From assembly GCA_021106775.1 (NCBI GenBank), contig JAIOTL010000401.1, forward strand, positions 1-5,911: 5,911 nt of DNA, in the 5' to 3' direction. The position numbers were made by a program, and so were the translations under genes. This DNA comes from Planctomycetota bacterium. Lineage in GTDB: Bacteria; Planctomycetota; UBA8742; SKZP01; JAIOTL01. Under the pieces are notes generated by a model, which made no database searches, was not told the DNA's origin, and saw only the letters and a program-made list of their open reading frames with translations. This document shows, one piece after another, positions 1 through 5,911 of the stretch. How positions within the stretch are numbered: position 1 is the stretch's first letter; the number at the start of each line of letters is the position of its first letter.

Positions 1-105
1 AAAAATCTGAACTCTGAAAAAGTAAAAAGCAATGACGAAAACCCTAATAAATGGTATAAAAGTATTGGGACACAACCTAAAAAAAAGGGGCTTAACTCAG
101 GCTGA
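1..105 (+). CDS. 3' end of an upstream gene (partial, unknown function)
   Basis: Frame 1 is open from the window edge to a TGA at 103-105, giving 34 codons of a hydrophilic tail rich in Lys, Asn and Ser that ends KKKGLNSG. The other two forward frames hit stops within the first 15 bases or so. The stop lies two bases before the ATG of the next gene, a spacing typical of translationally coupled operon genes. No domain can be recognised in so short a tail, so no function is offered. An open run of this length can occur by chance in A-rich DNA. The call rests on the run together with the tight junction. If it is real, the downstream signalling protein is probably co-transcribed with this gene, which would explain why no promoter is obvious just before it. 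Confidence 0.55.
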   Translation, partial: KNLNSEKVKSNDENPNKWYKSIGTQPKKKGLNSG

Positions 106-107
106 TT

Positions 108-2135
108 ATGAAAGATGAAAAGGTTTTAATTGCGCTAGGTGACGATGAGAATGCAATCGTAAGGAAAATATTTGTTCAGTACGACTTAGAAATCAATGAG
201 ATTAACACCAGAAGTAAACTGCTGACGTCTGCACAAAATGAAAAACCATTGATAATTATTTTGAATATCTCTTCGGAGGATGGTATCGGTGGTGCTGCTG
301 TTGGTGAAGCGATTATGAAGGTTTCACCAGACAGCAGAATAATTTTCGTTGGAAAAGACGACCAGAAACTCATTGTTGATGCGCTTTATTCAGGAGATGC
401 ATTTATTTATTCTCCTATAAGACCTGAGATTGCTGAAATTGTTATTAAAACGAATGTTGTGAAATCGCGGGTTAATAGAACTGGTCGGATAAAATACAAG
501 GACAAAACAACAAGGAAGGCGCAAGAAACCCAAGCGATGCATAATTTTGTGCTTCAATTGAGCAATGCCAGACGAATGAACGAGTTCGCACAAATCATCA
601 TGCAATATCTTCGTGAAATGCTCGATTTTAAGGTGTTTGTGTTCTCGATTATTGAAAAACAACCTGATTTGTTCCGTTCTCGAATTTATTTAACGGATGA
701 TGTAAACGCTGAGACACTTGCAAACATAAAAAACGAAATTAAGGAACATACTAAACGACAACCTGCACAAATATTCAATTTTGAATTCGTAACGCAGGAT
801 GAAACCAATGAAATTGCGAAAACCTGGGATGCGAATAATTATTATATCTGGGAACTCAGTGCTCAGAGCAACTTCGGCTGTATTTTTGTTTTTAGCGATG
901 TGCCTTTAAAAGTGTCTGCACCAATGAAAAAACTGACATATTCGATGTTTACTCAGGCATCGACGTTTATCAGCTATCTGCGCGAGCTTGAAACCGAGCG
1001 GATTGAACTTCTTAACACGATTACGAACATAATGCCCGAAGGTGTTTTGTGGATTGACGACAGAAAAACCGAAGTCTTTGTTAATAATCGAGCGAAAGAG
1101 ATTTTCGACAAAAATATCAAGGAATCGATAAGCACAACTCTGCACCGCGACAAACTTTTCGATATTTTCCGAAGGCTTAATATTTTTGATAATTTCTTCG
1201 GGTTAAACGCAAGCAAGAAGAAAAACATATCAAACACACTCACGATTAACGGATTTCTGCTTGAATTCAACGTTTACAGAATAACACAGGGTGACAGCCA
1301 GGAATATACCGGCACACTGTTTGTTATACGGGATAAAACCGAGGAAAAGAACGAAGCACAAGAGAATTTTGAGCTTCTAAATGTGATTATCAACGAAATC
1401 AAAGAGCCTGTGAAGTCCATTGACGCACTTTCCGAGTTGGTTTACGACAACCTGAAATCGCAGACAATATCTCGAGAATATTTGCGAAATATTGATGTGA
1501 TTAACGATGCGGTTAACAAAATTTCGGAGATTGTTAATTATTTCGTCAATAAAAATAAGCTGAAGTACGAAATCCTTCGGAAAAAACCAGTCAAGGTTGA
1601 AAACATATTCGATGCCGTGTTCGACAAGTTCAGAGACGAGGCTGCATCGAGAAATATTACGCTGAAGAAAGAGGTGCTTCCGGGCGGGATGAATATTTTG
1701 GCTGATGCTGAGCAGATTCAGCTTGTTCTCAAGAATCTTGTGATGAATTCGATGAATTATACAGCTGATTCGGGAATAATCATACTTCGCAGTGAACCTT
1801 CGGAATATGCTAAGATTACGAAAAAAGGTAAAATTGCCGGCATAAAGAAAATCGATGATTTTACTAAATTGCCCAGATATTTCGTTGAAATAAGCTGCAT
1901 TGACAACGGTATCGGCATCCCCGAAGACCATCATATTAAGGTTTTCGAGCGTTTCGCACAGGCGGAAACACCACAGGTAACAGGCAAGAAGGGCATCGGA
2001 CTCGGATTGACTCTTGCTCAGAATATCATTGAATTTCATGGTGGAAACATCTGGATAGACCATGAATACAAAGATGGCGCAAAGGTTGTCTTCAACATCG
2101 CTGTTGGTTTCGCACTTCCAAAAGACCTGAGCTAA
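108..2135 (+). CDS. Pseudo-histidine kinase: degenerate receiver, GAF-like, PAS, HisKA-like and HATPase_c domains
   Basis: This 675-residue protein has no signal peptide or membrane helix, so it is probably cytoplasmic. Residues 1-115 have a receiver-like alternation with an acidic GDDE at 11-14, but Asn53 sits where the phosphoacceptor Asp is expected, Gly82 at the usual Thr/Ser and Ser102-Pro103 at the usual Lys-Pro. Residues about 145-292 look GAF-like. Residues about 300-415 are PAS-like, ending in the typical IRDKTEE. Residues about 416-490 form the DHp two-helix segment. Its H-box reads INEIKEPV, with Asn429 at the His position, and no His occurs between 347 and 607. The HATPase_c domain is intact: N-box Asn543/Asn547, G1 DNGIGIP at 599-605, F-box F613 and F616, G2 GIGLGL at 629-634. 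The protein probably binds ATP but should not autophosphorylate in the classical way. DivL of Caulobacter, with Tyr for His, is a known parallel. The ATG has AGG at 99-101 six bases upstream. An in-frame TAA at 93-95 rules out an earlier start beyond it. The target is unknown. Confidence 0.88.
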   Translation: MKDEKVLIALGDDENAIVRKIFVQYDLEINEINTRSKLLTSAQNEKPLIIILNISSEDGIGGAAVGEAIMKVSPDSRIIFVGKDDQKLIVDALYSGDAFIYSPIRPEIAEIVIKTNVVKSRVNRTGRIKYKDKTTRKAQETQAMHNFVLQLSNARRMNEFAQIIMQYLREMLDFKVFVFSIIEKQPDLFRSRIYLTDDVNAETLANIKNEIKEHTKRQPAQIFNFEFVTQDETNEIAKTWDANNYYIWELSAQSNFGCIFVFSDVPLKVSAPMKKLTYSMFTQASTFISYLRELETERIELLNTITNIMPEGVLWIDDRKTEVFVNNRAKEIFDKNIKESISTTLHRDKLFDIFRRLNIFDNFFGLNASKKKNISNTLTINGFLLEFNVYRITQGDSQEYTGTLFVIRDKTEEKNEAQENFELLNVIINEIKEPVKSIDALSELVYDNLKSQTISREYLRNIDVINDAVNKISEIVNYFVNKNKLKYEILRKKPVKVENIFDAVFDKFRDEAASRNITLKKEVLPGGMNILADAEQIQLVLKNLVMNSMNYTADSGIIILRSEPSEYAKITKKGKIAGIKKIDDFTKLPRYFVEISCIDNGIGIPEDHHIKVFERFAQAETPQVTGKKGIGLGLTLAQNIIEFHGGNIWIDHEYKDGAKVVFNIAVGFALPKDLS

Positions 2136-2232
2136 ATTCAATCAATATTTCTTATATCACCCGAAAACAAATTACTATATTCTTTGCCTAATATTCGTTA
2201 ATCTACATATTAAAAGATAGGATTGTACATTA

Positions 2233-2290
2233 AATTGTATTGGAACTTTCGATTTGTAACTTTTAACAGCTTAGAAGATATAATACAATT
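2233..2290. repeat. 9-bp inverted repeat bracketing the candidate promoter
   Basis: AATTGTATT at 2233-2241 is the exact reverse complement of AATACAATT at 2282-2290, leaving 40 bases between the arms. The right arm overlaps the end of the TATAAT box. A further related ATTGTA lies at 2222-2227. The arrangement could be a pair of operator half-sites. A 9-bp match of AT-rich arms is about what one might expect by chance in 190 bp of this composition, so the support is weak. Confidence 0.25.
2254..2284 (+). promoter_or_regulatory. Candidate housekeeping-type promoter for the sigma/anti-sigma operon
   Basis: A perfect -10 hexamer TATAAT lies at 2279-2284. TTGTAA at 2254-2259 matches four of six bases of the -35 consensus, with a long 19-bp spacer. 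Transcription would start near 2291 and leave a leader of about 35 bases before the ATG at 2326. A second motif, GGAACTT at 2242-2248, resembles the -35 element of many ECF sigma factors and could mark autoregulation, but I could not match a convincing ECF -10 to it. AT-rich DNA gives such hexamers by chance. The placement in the only sizeable gap is the main support. Confidence 0.4.
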
Positions 2291-2325
2291 CGGTGTAATA
2301 ATTTTAAAAAAAGAGTGTCAACTAT

Positions 2326-2895
2326 ATGAACAACGAAAAAGAACTGATTGATTCGCTAAAGAAAGACCTAGTTAACTCATTTCCGTTGTTAATTGAAAGG
2401 TTCGAGAAAGCTCTTATGAGCTATGCCTACAGATTAACCGGCGATTTGCAAGGCGCGCAGGATATTGTTCAGGTTGTATTTTTCAAGTTTTATCAGAAAT
2501 TCTGGGATATGCAGCCTATTGTGCATTTATCAGCACTGCTTTACAAGATGACCGGGAATTTGTCGAAGAACTATATTCGAGATAAATCAAGAAAAAGAGA
2601 GATATCTATGAACTTAGAATCATCTTCTACGTCAGGTTTTTCAATACCTGTAATATCGGATAGCGAATACGACTCAACAGTTGAGCTTGAAACGATTATT
2701 CGCAAAGCGATTGACAGACTTCCGAGTAAACAGAAAACGGCTCTTATACTTAAAGTTTACGAGGGCAAGACTTATCTCGAAATTGCTGAAATTCTCGAGA
2801 CCTCCAAAAATAACGTTATGGTGCTTATACACAGGGCACATAACACTTTAATCGCTGACAAACAATTACAAAAATACCTGGAATTTAATAAATAA
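2326..2895 (+). CDS. ECF-type sigma-70 family RNA polymerase sigma factor
   Basis: At 189 residues this is the usual size for a two-domain ECF-type sigma factor. It would direct RNA polymerase core to a dedicated set of promoters. Region 2 spans about 22-91. It includes the core-binding helix GAQDIVQVVFFKFYQKF at 43-59 and the promoter-melting stretch ending LSKNYIRDKSRKRE at 79-92, both close to family consensus. A Ser-rich linker at about 93-120 joins it to region 4 at about 122-176. Region 4 shows LPSKQKTAL at 132-140 and a helix-turn-helix from TYLEIAEIL to LIHRAHNTL (149-175) for recognising the -35 element. No region 1 or region 3 is seen. The start ATG has only a weak AAGAG (2311-2315) ten bases upstream. 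The next gene begins 10 bp after the stop and opens with a zinc-binding anti-sigma motif, so this sigma factor is probably held inactive by it. The regulon cannot be told from this window. Confidence 0.92.
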   Translation: MNNEKELIDSLKKDLVNSFPLLIERFEKALMSYAYRLTGDLQGAQDIVQVVFFKFYQKFWDMQPIVHLSALLYKMTGNLSKNYIRDKSRKREISMNLESSSTSGFSIPVISDSEYDSTVELETIIRKAIDRLPSKQKTALILKVYEGKTYLEIAEILETSKNNVMVLIHRAHNTLIADKQLQKYLEFNK

Positions 2896-2900
2896 AGGGG
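2896..2900 (+). promoter_or_regulatory. Ribosome binding site abutting the sigma gene's stop
   Basis: AGGGG directly follows the TAA at 2893-2895 and lies five bases before the ATG at 2906. This strong site supports 2906 as a true start. Its contact with the sigma gene's stop suggests translational coupling of the two products, as is common for sigma/anti-sigma pairs. Confidence 0.7.
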
Positions 2901-2905
2901 CAGAA

Positions 2906-5900
2906 ATGAGCAATAACTGCACACAAATGAGATTATTTATCACAGCTTTGTTGCACAACGAACTTGACTCTGCCGATAGCACGCAAACCAAAGAACACAT
3001 TAACGAATGCAATGACTGCAAAGCATATTTTTTGAAAATCCGAAAACTTGAGCAATTTCTGAAAAGTGCAATACCCAATGTGGAAATACCGTCAGTGAGA
3101 AATGATGTAATGAAAAAAATTGGAGAAACAGAGAAAAACAACGCAATTAGGGAGAATATTATGACCATCAGATTCGATTGTGCAAAATGCAAGCGGCACT
3201 TTGAAGCAGAGACAAAGCATGTCGGAAAGAAGATGAAATGTCCTAAATGCGGCACGGTTAATGTTGTTCCTTCAAATCCAACGATTTCGCCGAAGCAGGT
3301 TCGACCACCGAGTAGAATTAATGACGCGGAAACAGGTCAAATGCCTTCAATTTCAAAGCAGATAGCGGATACAAGTTCATCTGCAACACCGCTTGTAGGC
3401 GAAATTCCAACCGTGAAAGAAGTGCGTAGAATCGCATCGGATATTCAAGCTTCGAGAAAAGCTCCAAGAAGAAGCAATGTTCAAAGATCGAAACCAAGGC
3501 GAATTCAATCTGAACCTGGTCGAATGCGCAAACCGAGAAGAAGTCCTGAATATCGCGTGAATGCGACCGGTCAGCAATTATCGGCAGATAAGAATTCACA
3601 GAAGAAAAAATATGTTATCATCGGTTCTTCAGCATTCGGCTTCTTTCTTCTTCTGATTCTTGCAATTATTGCTTTTGGTGGAAGTGGCGGCGAAAATGTT
3701 GTTCCTGAAAATGTCAACAATACTGCACCAGTGGTCGAGGAAACGAATACACCTGATTTTAAACCTCATCAGCCAAAAGTTATTTTCGACGAACCTGAAA
3801 CTACGGATGAGATAAAAGAAGAAAAGAAAGTTGAACCCACAATTGAACCTCTTGAAATTACTTCCATAAAGCTTCCTGAAACCGAATTCGCAATTTATCA
3901 GGAAATTTCATTCGGAATTAAAATTAAAGGCGGCGTAAAACCTTATTTATGGAGCATCTCGGAAGGTTCACTACCTGATGGATTAATATTCGAAAACGGT
4001 GTTATCAAAGGCGTTATCAGAGATTCAGGTGAATTTAGTTTTACAATATTTGTTATTGATGCTAACAGAAATATAAAAACACAAAGATATTCGATGAGTG
4101 TTTATTCGGAGTTTCAGCTTGGTTCAGAGATTCCAAGGAAAATGATTCTGAATGAGGAATATTCGTTCAAAATTAATGCTATCGGCGGAAAGGAACCTTA
4201 TTCAGCATCGGAGCTTGATAACAGTCTTCCTAATGGTGTAAAGTTCTATCATGAAACGCTGGAAGTTAAGGGTACGTCGACCGAAGTTGGAATCTTTACG
4301 CTAGATTTATCCTTAACAGATGCAATTGGACAAGAGCAGACATGGAGTCATAAATGGTTTGTTGATGATCCGGAACCTATAATCGAAAAACCAAAGGATG
4401 ACAAAGACGACAAAGAACTTGAAAAACCTGATGACAAAATTGAAAATCCTGAAAAAGAACCTGAAAAACCTTCACTTTCACAAACACAGATTCGCCTACT
4501 TCTGATGAAATATCGTAACGAAGCCTCTCAGTTGTTACGAGCAAAGAAATACCAGGAAGCAATTGATGTATTTGCGAAAATTCTCGAGCTTGATGACCAG
4601 GATTCAAACGCATATTACAATTCTGCATGTGCTTACTCGCTAATGAAAAATAAGGACAAAGCAATTGAATATCTAGAGAAAGCGATTCGCGCGGGTTTCA
4701 GAGACCTCAATCATATTCTCGAAGATAAGGATTTCGATTATATCAAGCGTGACAAAAGGTTCAGAAAACTCACCAAAAACCAGGATGTTATCAACCAGCT
4801 TTCTATGAACGCTCTAAAAGATAGAGTTGCCAAGGAATTCCCGGCTGACCAGGGATTCCTCAAGACTATCGATCATGAAAATAGACTTGTTTACGCTACG
4901 AATCTTGGTGATTCCAAGGATGACAGCAGAGAGATTCTAAATATGCTGCGCAGTAGAATTGAAAATTATGCGAAAGCACAATGGCGTCAATTATTTAAGA
5001 AAAAACCAAAATATTATATCACCGTTGTAATTCCGAAAAAACAATGGTTCGACCTGTACAAGCGTCGCAAAGGTTTTCCAGCGATGGTTGGTGGTTGGTA
5101 CAACCCAGCAGATAAATTCCTCATTGCAGGAACAATGGGACACACATTAACCCACGAGTTTACCCACGCTATGCATTTTGCTGACATGGAAGGTCGAAAA
5201 GGTCAGAAAAATATGCATATCTGGTTCACGGAAGGACTTGCTACATGCTTTGAGGACTGCAAACTGCCTGAACGCTCAACACAAAAGCCAGAACCCATTT
5301 ACAATAATCGTGTAAAAACAATGGTTACTGTACTTGAAAACCCGAACTACAGAAGTCGATTATACTGGAATTGGCGTAAATTCTTCTCGCAAGATCGCAG
5401 AATATTTATGTCTCGCGGGCGTGTCGGCGTTTCATATTCAATGTCAAGATGTATCACGTTATGGCTGTACAGAACGAAACGACTGAAGAAATATTACGAG
5501 CTTTATATGGATTCTTGCGACAATGGTACACCGGACGGTAAAAACGGTATTACAGCAATGGAGAAATTGTTTGGTATGAAGCTTGAGAAAATCGAAGATA
5601 TGTGGCTCAAATGGATAATAGTGCAGAAGTATGAAGACCCGAAAGCATATATCGGGATAGAAATTTCAAGCAAACCATCCAACATGGGCATGGGTGTTGT
5701 AATCTCAGAAGTTAAGAAGGATTCAAGTGCAGAAGATGCTGGCTTACAGGTTGGCGACATTATTGTTACTTTCAATCGTATGGCAATCGATGTTGTCTCC
5801 CATTTGGCTGTCGCAATTACTGAGTGTAAAATCGGACAAAAAGTCGATTGCGTCATCATCCGTAACGGAAAACCTGTAGAATTGAAAGTCAAACTCAAGC

Positions 5901-5911
5901 GACGACCTAAG
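2906..5911 (+). CDS. Membrane-spanning anti-sigma / zinc ribbon / Ig-like / TPR / gluzincin metallopeptidase / PDZ protein (3' end open at window edge)
   Basis: A single frame of 1002 codons runs from ATG 2906 off the window without a stop. I checked the frame line by line. Residues 1-75 match zf-HC2/ZAS anti-sigma factors: C5, H31-x3-C35-x2-C38, then a P-x2-R-x2-V-x3-I tail. Residues 86-120 form a Cys4 zinc ribbon (C92, C95, C112, C115). Residues 121-235 are a basic, disordered linker. Residues 236-257 are one hydrophobic helix with KKK on its N-terminal side, implying N-in/C-out topology. Outside come an acidic linker (263-315), two He_PIG-like Ig domains (about 324-400 and 401-486; GG..PY...LP.G signatures), a Lys/Glu/Pro spacer (494-522) and two TPRs (about 535-602). 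A metallopeptidase domain follows, with HEFTH at 750-754 and the likely third zinc ligand Glu776 in WFTEGLA, as in peptidase-MA/DUF1570-type gluzincins. A PDZ domain (914-1002) looks nearly complete, so the stop is probably close. The likely role is to bind the upstream sigma factor and link its release to an envelope signal. The protease substrate is unknown. Met86 may be an alternative start. Confidence 0.85.
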   Translation, partial: MSNNCTQMRLFITALLHNELDSADSTQTKEHINECNDCKAYFLKIRKLEQFLKSAIPNVEIPSVRNDVMKKIGETEKNNAIRENIMTIRFDCAKCKRHFEAETKHVGKKMKCPKCGTVNVVPSNPTISPKQVRPPSRINDAETGQMPSISKQIADTSSSATPLVGEIPTVKEVRRIASDIQASRKAPRRSNVQRSKPRRIQSEPGRMRKPRRSPEYRVNATGQQLSADKNSQKKKYVIIGSSAFGFFLLLILAIIAFGGSGGENVVPENVNNTAPVVEETNTPDFKPHQPKVIFDEPETTDEIKEEKKVEPTIEPLEITSIKLPETEFAIYQEISFGIKIKGGVKPYLWSISEGSLPDGLIFENGVIKGVIRDSGEFSFTIFVIDANRNIKTQRYSMSVYSEFQLGSEIPRKMILNEEYSFKINAIGGKEPYSASELDNSLPNGVKFYHETLEVKGTSTEVGIFTLDLSLTDAIGQEQTWSHKWFVDDPEPIIEKPKDDKDDKELEKPDDKIENPEKEPEKPSLSQTQIRLLLMKYRNEASQLLRAKKYQEAIDVFAKILELDDQDSNAYYNSACAYSLMKNKDKAIEYLEKAIRAGFRDLNHILEDKDFDYIKRDKRFRKLTKNQDVINQLSMNALKDRVAKEFPADQGFLKTIDHENRLVYATNLGDSKDDSREILNMLRSRIENYAKAQWRQLFKKKPKYYITVVIPKKQWFDLYKRRKGFPAMVGGWYNPADKFLIAGTMGHTLTHEFTHAMHFADMEGRKGQKNMHIWFTEGLATCFEDCKLPERSTQKPEPIYNNRVKTMVTVLENPNYRSRLYWNWRKFFSQDRRIFMSRGRVGVSYSMSRCITLWLYRTKRLKKYYELYMDSCDNGTPDGKNGITAMEKLFGMKLEKIEDMWLKWIIVQKYEDPKAYIGIEISSKPSNMGMGVVISEVKKDSSAEDAGLQVGDIIVTFNRMAIDVVSHLAVAITECKIGQKVDCVIIRNGKPVELKVKLKRRPK
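3149..3163 (+). promoter_or_regulatory. Internal ribosome binding site and in-frame start (Met86)
   Basis: AGGGAG at 3149-3154 lies six bases before an in-frame ATG at 3161-3163. This is a stronger site than the one in front of the sigma gene. The Met opens MTIRFDCAKC, which resembles the usual N-terminus of stand-alone zinc-ribbon proteins. Initiation here would give a membrane protein with the zinc ribbon but without the anti-sigma domain. It may be a working second start or a relic of a fusion between two once-separate genes. Confidence 0.5.
4385..4471 (+). repeat. Low-complexity Lys/Glu/Asp/Pro-coding spacer inside the large gene
   Basis: The 29 codons for residues 494-522 use almost only Lys, Glu, Asp and Pro, with recurring EKP and DDK units encoded by near-repeated GAAAAACCT and GATGACAAA strings. 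The segment separates the Ig-like pair from the TPRs and is probably an extended flexible or rod-like spacer. Short tandem units like these can vary in number between strains. Confidence 0.6.

Follow-up and report, generated by a model that had tools for sequence, protein, structure and literature searches.

Introduction

In the classic pathway, as set out in the parts of two papers drawn on here, release of a sigma factor requires site-1, site-2 and cytosolic proteases (PMC12203970; PMC7593790; both in part). Class I anti-sigma domains (ASDI, or zinc anti-sigma, ZAS) carry an Hx3Cx2C signature that spans helices 2 and 3, and have been described in general terms with varied C-terminal domains (PMC7406223, in part). 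RsgI9 of Clostridium thermocellum combines an anti-sigma-type domain inside the cell with a helix, a periplasmic domain that cleaves itself and a sensor resembling a protease (PMC12203970, in part). Here we analyse a 5,911-nt stretch of DNA from a Planctomycetota bacterium (GenBank assembly GCA_021106775.1, contig JAIOTL010000401.1, positions 1 to 5,911 of the forward strand), referred to throughout as the window, in which a gene for an extracytoplasmic function (ECF) sigma factor is followed by a long open reading frame (ORF 2) with a predicted ZAS domain at its start and a predicted metallopeptidase and PDZ domain towards its end.

We hold with moderate confidence that in ORF 2 a class I ZAS domain, encoded together with the ECF sigma factor, was added in frame at the N-terminal end of an already existing membrane protein made up of a zinc ribbon, a helix, Ig-like domains, TPR repeats, a gluzincin-type peptidase and a PDZ domain, and that the sigma factor would thereby be tethered. 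Judging from the sequence, the fusion is probably both real and recent.

Results

The three large ORFs of the window, like all its features described below, lie on the plus strand: a histidine-kinase-like gene (108-2135), the ECF-type sigma gene (2326-2895, 189 aa) and, after a gap of 10 nt, the frame starting at 2906. The first-pass annotation, made from the DNA letters, had given the same layout of sigma gene, gap and single open frame. ORF 2 (2906-5911) is stop-free over 1002 codons up to the end of the window, and its product would have at least 1002 residues; several relatives end a few residues from its last codon, and P0016, P0017 and P0020 have further domains. The domains and the order proposed for them earlier also hold: ZAS, ribbon, one membrane helix, two Ig-like domains, TPR repeats, a peptidase with an HEFTH...E motif, and PDZ.

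The ZAS domain, with a short linker, occupies residues 1-85 (2906-3160). Its single-sequence matches stay below cut-offs that are database thresholds and not biological features (zf-HC2, E 0.023, 15.2 bits, cut-off 22.2; RsrA model, E 0.0026, 17.8 bits, cut-off 62.5). A profile built with relatives and run against the PDB finds RsiW (4.1e-13) and RsrA (3e-8), and also matches RslA, ChrR and DdvA. When a model of residues 1-125 was compared using Foldseek, the 16 best rows were all anti-sigma domains (chains of seven entries, E 0.3-2.4 each), and the matches include MucA, RsiW, RslA, ChrR and DdvA; the ribbon part of this model is poor (pLDDT about 50-60). The zinc signature consists of C5, H31, C35 and C38, and the last three, forming Hx3Cx2C, are common to the ZAS N-termini of ten relatives in our alignment, from which an eleventh match without the motif (L086) was excluded. 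With the class I signature, the predicted anti-sigma domain fold and an adjoining ECF sigma gene all found, the assignment of residues 1-85 as a class I ZAS domain holds as far as sequence and model go, and stands on firmer ground than when it was first made; the domain would be expected to bind the sigma factor. A ZAS motif is found in the frame starting beside the sigma gene in seven of 30 loci of sigma relatives, and since four of these seven frames are 215-491 residues long, a ZAS domain with a large outer part is not rare.

Hydropathy and charge bias place a single membrane helix at about residues 235-263 (3608-3694). The linker before it has 25 lysines and arginines vs 9 aspartates and glutamates, and the linker after it 5 vs 14; because of this bias the ZAS domain is likely to be cytosolic and the peptidase to lie outside the membrane, in agreement with the ectodomain of the earlier proposal. 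Between ZAS domain and helix come the zinc ribbon and about 110 residues of basic linker, and acidic, proline-containing linkers follow the helix (58 residues) and precede the TPRs (47 residues). For the 11 ZAS proteins of the fetched loci, the helix starts 67-98 residues past the start of the ZAS match in ten, and a ribbon is found in none.

The predicted outer part begins with two He_PIG Ig-like domains at about residues 314-486 (3845-4363, outer limits set by eye; He_PIG 1.3e-11 over two stretches, the best at 416-479), followed by TPR repeats and a TPR end domain at about residues 535-623 (4508-4774; TPR_2 2.1e-7, TPR_END_plus 4.2e-19 at 569-623, and helices in the model). A gluzincin-type metallopeptidase comes next, at about residues 640-905 (4823-5620, limits estimated), and then a PDZ domain at about residues 915-1000 (5648-5905; PDZ_2 8.2e-13 at 915-997, with HtrA-type PDZ matches). 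The first-pass annotation had suggested searches for PDZ, He_PIG, Peptidase_MA_2/DUF1570 and zf-HC2; PDZ_2 and He_PIG answered to it, DUF1570 came close to its cut-off (4.7e-4, 20.9 bits, cut-off 22), and zf-HC2 fell short, as given above. In the peptidase, HEFTH (5153-5167) is followed by the downstream glutamate E776 (5231-5233); H750, E751, H754 and E776 are invariant across 38 aligned proteins, and the predicted fold is that of a gluzincin. An M61-type aminopeptidase was considered and dropped: 4fgm, of the aminopeptidase N family, was the top Foldseek row over 442 columns at a root-mean-square deviation of 13.7, and was missing from the 50 rows listed in a second look, which M9 collagenases lead. 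A site-2 protease of the RseP type has HExxH in a membrane helix and at least three membrane segments; it was rejected because ORF 2 has a single helix, and HEFTH (750-754) is in a soluble domain. PHROGs gave no useful match for ORF 2.

On comparison of their sequences, the ZAS part and the peptidase part have separate histories. The alignment of P0030 (908 aa) covers residues 86-1002 at 26% identity, with Met1 of P0030 falling on Met86. P0030 is the only one of 46 related peptidases (P0013-P0058) with a ribbon; none of the 46 has a ZAS motif in the first 150 residues, and in 33 a hydrophobic stretch starts within the first 40. The matches to residues 1-125 listed from 392 genomes of the phylum fall to either the ZAS domain or the ribbon, in rows within residues 2-85 or 49-125; one row spans 11-91, and none of those listed covers the two in full. 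At E 1e-50, with two candidates scored per genome, the same genomes gave ten matches, all beginning at residue 495 or later; class-level searches covered 2 and 1 genomes. The TPR-peptidase-PDZ module itself occurs with varied partners, namely several PDZ domains in P0013 and P0014, PF00415 (which we take to be RCC1-type repeats) in P0016, and PF13088 (presumably sialidase-type repeats) in P0017. In Planctomycetota classes sampled by one or two genomes (G001-G003), several peptidase copies are present per genome.

The junction between the two parts has features that the first-pass annotation did not notice. Met86 (3161) opens the zinc ribbon, residues 86-123 (3161-3274), whose CxxC...CxxC pattern runs from residue 92, and it is a probable second start, in view of the start of P0030 and of ATG codons in other ribbon loci. 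The Shine-Dalgarno-like GGGAG (3150-3154) lies 6 nt ahead of it; its duplex energy of -8.9 is the second among 46 in-frame ATGs and is reached at 11 of 1806 in-frame codon positions. In 20 of 26 ribbon loci an ATG lies no more than two codons away from the place of Met86 (ATG control 10.8%); with GTG and TTG counted as well the figure is 25 of 26, the control rate covering ATG only. In L111 and L112, by contrast, the ribbon lies at the opposite end, in a long frame. The ribbon is thus normally found at the start of a protein in these sequences, Met86 looks like an independent start, and a second, ZAS-free product would probably be made from it. The start at 2906 has a ribosome-site energy of -7.0, and therefore the full chain should be made too.

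These features also feed the strongest rival explanation, which we consider possible, with roughly one chance in four of being right: that two ordinary genes lie side by side, one for a small, soluble anti-sigma factor like RsrA (about 80 residues) and one for a membrane peptidase of the ribbon type that starts at Met86. The lack of a stop between them would then reflect a mistake in the assembly, or else a functionless loss of the stop that happened very recently. The start signals at Met86 and the homologous start in P0030 are what two genes would lead one to expect, and in L081 a ZAS frame follows a sigma gene and has no helix up to the end of the fetched DNA. The likeliest site for a sequencing slip that joins the frames is a run of seven A (A7; codons 70-72, 3113-3119), where a slip by one base would, in both other frames, bring a stop at Met86 or just ahead of it. 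We weighed such a frameshift artefact seriously. From the A7 run to Met86, the codon score of the fused frame is 4.44 (true-frame mean 3.69, standard deviation 2.74), against -2.66 and -4.79 in the other frames, so that codon usage fits neither alternative and favours the fused frame; it speaks against the artefact without excluding it, as a stretch of 13-14 codons cannot settle the question. The other two large ORFs of the window, moreover, are unbroken, which also tells against two genes.

Several observations weigh against ORF 2 being a fused anti-sigma factor. Searching 58 genome loci of related peptidases with the window's sigma factor (53 of them with at least 800 nt upstream, and the P0030 neighbourhood left out) gave no sigma gene adjoining the peptidase, in a single-sequence search that can overlook divergent sigma factors; its two matches, L019 (E 9.7e-8) and L011 (3.7e-5), lie ~1.9 kb and ~4 kb beyond the peptidase, on the opposite strand. 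When fused relatives were sought with residues 1-125, the query itself was the one sequence recovered from 70 candidates, which were proteins 0.55 to 1.75 times the query length, the search being word-based and of limited reach. The fusion is known from a single sequence, P0001 having one member on one contig. (Nine other matches to a word search with all of P0001 were taken as repeat matches and not as fused relatives, because all have He_PIG and cover 12-19% of the query.) Ribosome-site strength, finally, is an unreliable guide here: the kinase start scores -2.5 and the sigma start -3.2, and the top score, -9.4, belongs to an ATG inside the kinase gene.

The first-pass annotation had staked its idea on homologues keeping residues 1-85 or a sigma gene nearby, and this has largely gone against it, with none of 46 relatives carrying the ZAS motif and 58 loci lacking an adjoining sigma gene. 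Its view that anchor, sensor, peptidase and sigma-binding parts sit on one chain is upheld by the single open frame; the further idea of an evolved unit for control in cis is not. A late in-frame fusion, as set out in the Introduction, is the reading that we retain.

Upstream of ORF 2, the sigma factor (2326-2895) matches Sigma70_r2 (1.4e-10) and Sigma70_r4_2 (9.8e-15), both above cut-off, and TIGR02937 with 76.1 bits (cut-off 42.9). A GGAACTT at 2242-2248, ahead of the sigma gene, resembles what we take to be an ECF -35 element; as an autoregulatory promoter it was given no weight, 0.77 such sites being expected by chance in the window. Nor was weight given to a scan of 2100-3300 for sigma-70-type promoters, with 7 sites vs a shuffle mean of 4.2 (standard deviation 2.0); a scan of the same region found no terminator. 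In the kinase-like protein (108-2135), N429 stands where the SHEL motif of 3dge has its His, so that the phospho-acceptor His is an Asn; in Pfam an ATPase domain is matched, HisKA is not at E 1, and a receiver match is weak. The protein is possibly, from these features, a phosphotransfer-dead kinase.

Discussion

The simplest reading of the fused chain is a membrane-tethered anti-sigma factor. The product of ORF 2 would keep the sigma factor on the inner side of the membrane, with the peptidase facing outward, and from the old start at Met86, which is probably still in use, a ZAS-free copy of the peptidase would be made from the same messenger. We infer two products, a signal, and release of the sigma factor, most likely once the chain is proteolysed or the contact between ZAS domain and sigma factor is lost. 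The chain might be cut by the built-in peptidase itself or by separate site-1 and site-2 proteases; that the built-in gluzincin is the site-1 protease is a guess.

One elaboration makes the two starts in one frame the point of the system: a tethered anti-sigma factor with an outward gluzincin and a ZAS-free protease, where cleavage within or between the two forms would set sigma release. We think this doubtful; if true, it would be a switch for regulated proteolysis built from one gene. Slightly less probable still is a real fusion acting as a self-cleaving trigger, in which a substrate bound on the Ig-like, TPR or PDZ domains leads the gluzincin to cut its own outer linker at site 1, and a site-2 protease then frees the ZAS-sigma complex. 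The intact HEFTH...E motif and the acidic, proline-containing linkers on the outer side would suit this, and autocleavage of a periplasmic domain is the first step in RsgI (PMC12203970, in part). Proteins that start in a secretion-like manner and have no neighbouring sigma gene carry the same peptidase, however, and because of this its ancestral substrate was probably something else. That the peptidase domain is a sensor only, binding substrate without useful catalysis, has a precedent in the polysaccharide-binding, protease-like domain of RsgI9 (PMC12203970, in part), and is very improbable here in view of the retained catalytic residues.

A real fusion would be a case of an anti-sigma domain attached to an otherwise independent protease, a snapshot of how sigma systems gain sensors. 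It could also serve as a natural test, asking if a single chain can do the work of RseA, DegS and RseP. The start at Met86 sharpens the question, as one gene may yield both a tether and a free protease.

Among the known systems closest to ORF 2 are class I membrane anti-sigma factors of the RsiW type, with which it shares the N-terminal ZAS domain, an ECF partner just upstream, one helix and an outer C-terminal part; it differs in the ribbon and basic linker ahead of the helix, and in having a peptidase in the outer part. Planctomycete TPR-DUF1570-like-PDZ proteins (such as P0018, P0021 and P0030) share the module, at 26-36% identity, and its catalytic residues, but such proteins lack the ZAS motif and an adjoining sigma gene, and most start signal-like. 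The CHAT-domain protein 8rot_B of the PDB (991 residues, compared by its PDB name) has an N-terminal ZAS-like stretch (8-48, E 3.4e-4) and is named for a protease-type domain, which we take to be of a different kind, and is perhaps another anti-sigma/protease fusion. The RseA/DegS/RseP system also combines an ECF sigma factor, an inner-membrane anti-sigma factor, and PDZ and metallopeptidase functions; there these are separate proteins, DegS is a serine protease, and HExxH of RseP lies in a membrane segment (PMC7593790, in part), unlike the soluble outer domain here. BlaR1/MecR1 unite sensor and zinc metallopeptidase in one membrane protein that controls transcription, but with the peptidase on the inner side, where it destroys a repressor, and with no anti-sigma domain; IutY of Pseudomonas putida also has two sigma-system functions in one protein, there a sigma and an anti-sigma factor without a peptidase (PMC7593790, in part, for both). 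The RsgI family is absent from the best 25 of 28 Pfam and 25 of 41 NCBIfam matches, and the partner matches ECF models. Among the matches listed from the open-licence literature, titles and abstract openings mention neither a fusion of anti-sigma factor and metallopeptidase nor a gluzincin-PDZ protein of the ribbon type that carries a ZAS domain; the earlier remark that no named system with this exact architecture was known stands for the exact combination in those listings, but not for the joining of anti-sigma-type and protease-like parts as such. RsgI9 has, on a single chain, an anti-sigma-type domain inside, one helix, and outside a domain resembling a protease, and differs in its RsgI-type N-domain without a known SigI partner, its own autocleaving domain, and a protease-like domain that binds polysaccharide (PMC12203970, in part). 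With anti-sigma and peptidase-like parts on one chain already known from RsgI9, the ZAS domain on a protein of the gluzincin-PDZ type would be a variant, represented by one sequence.

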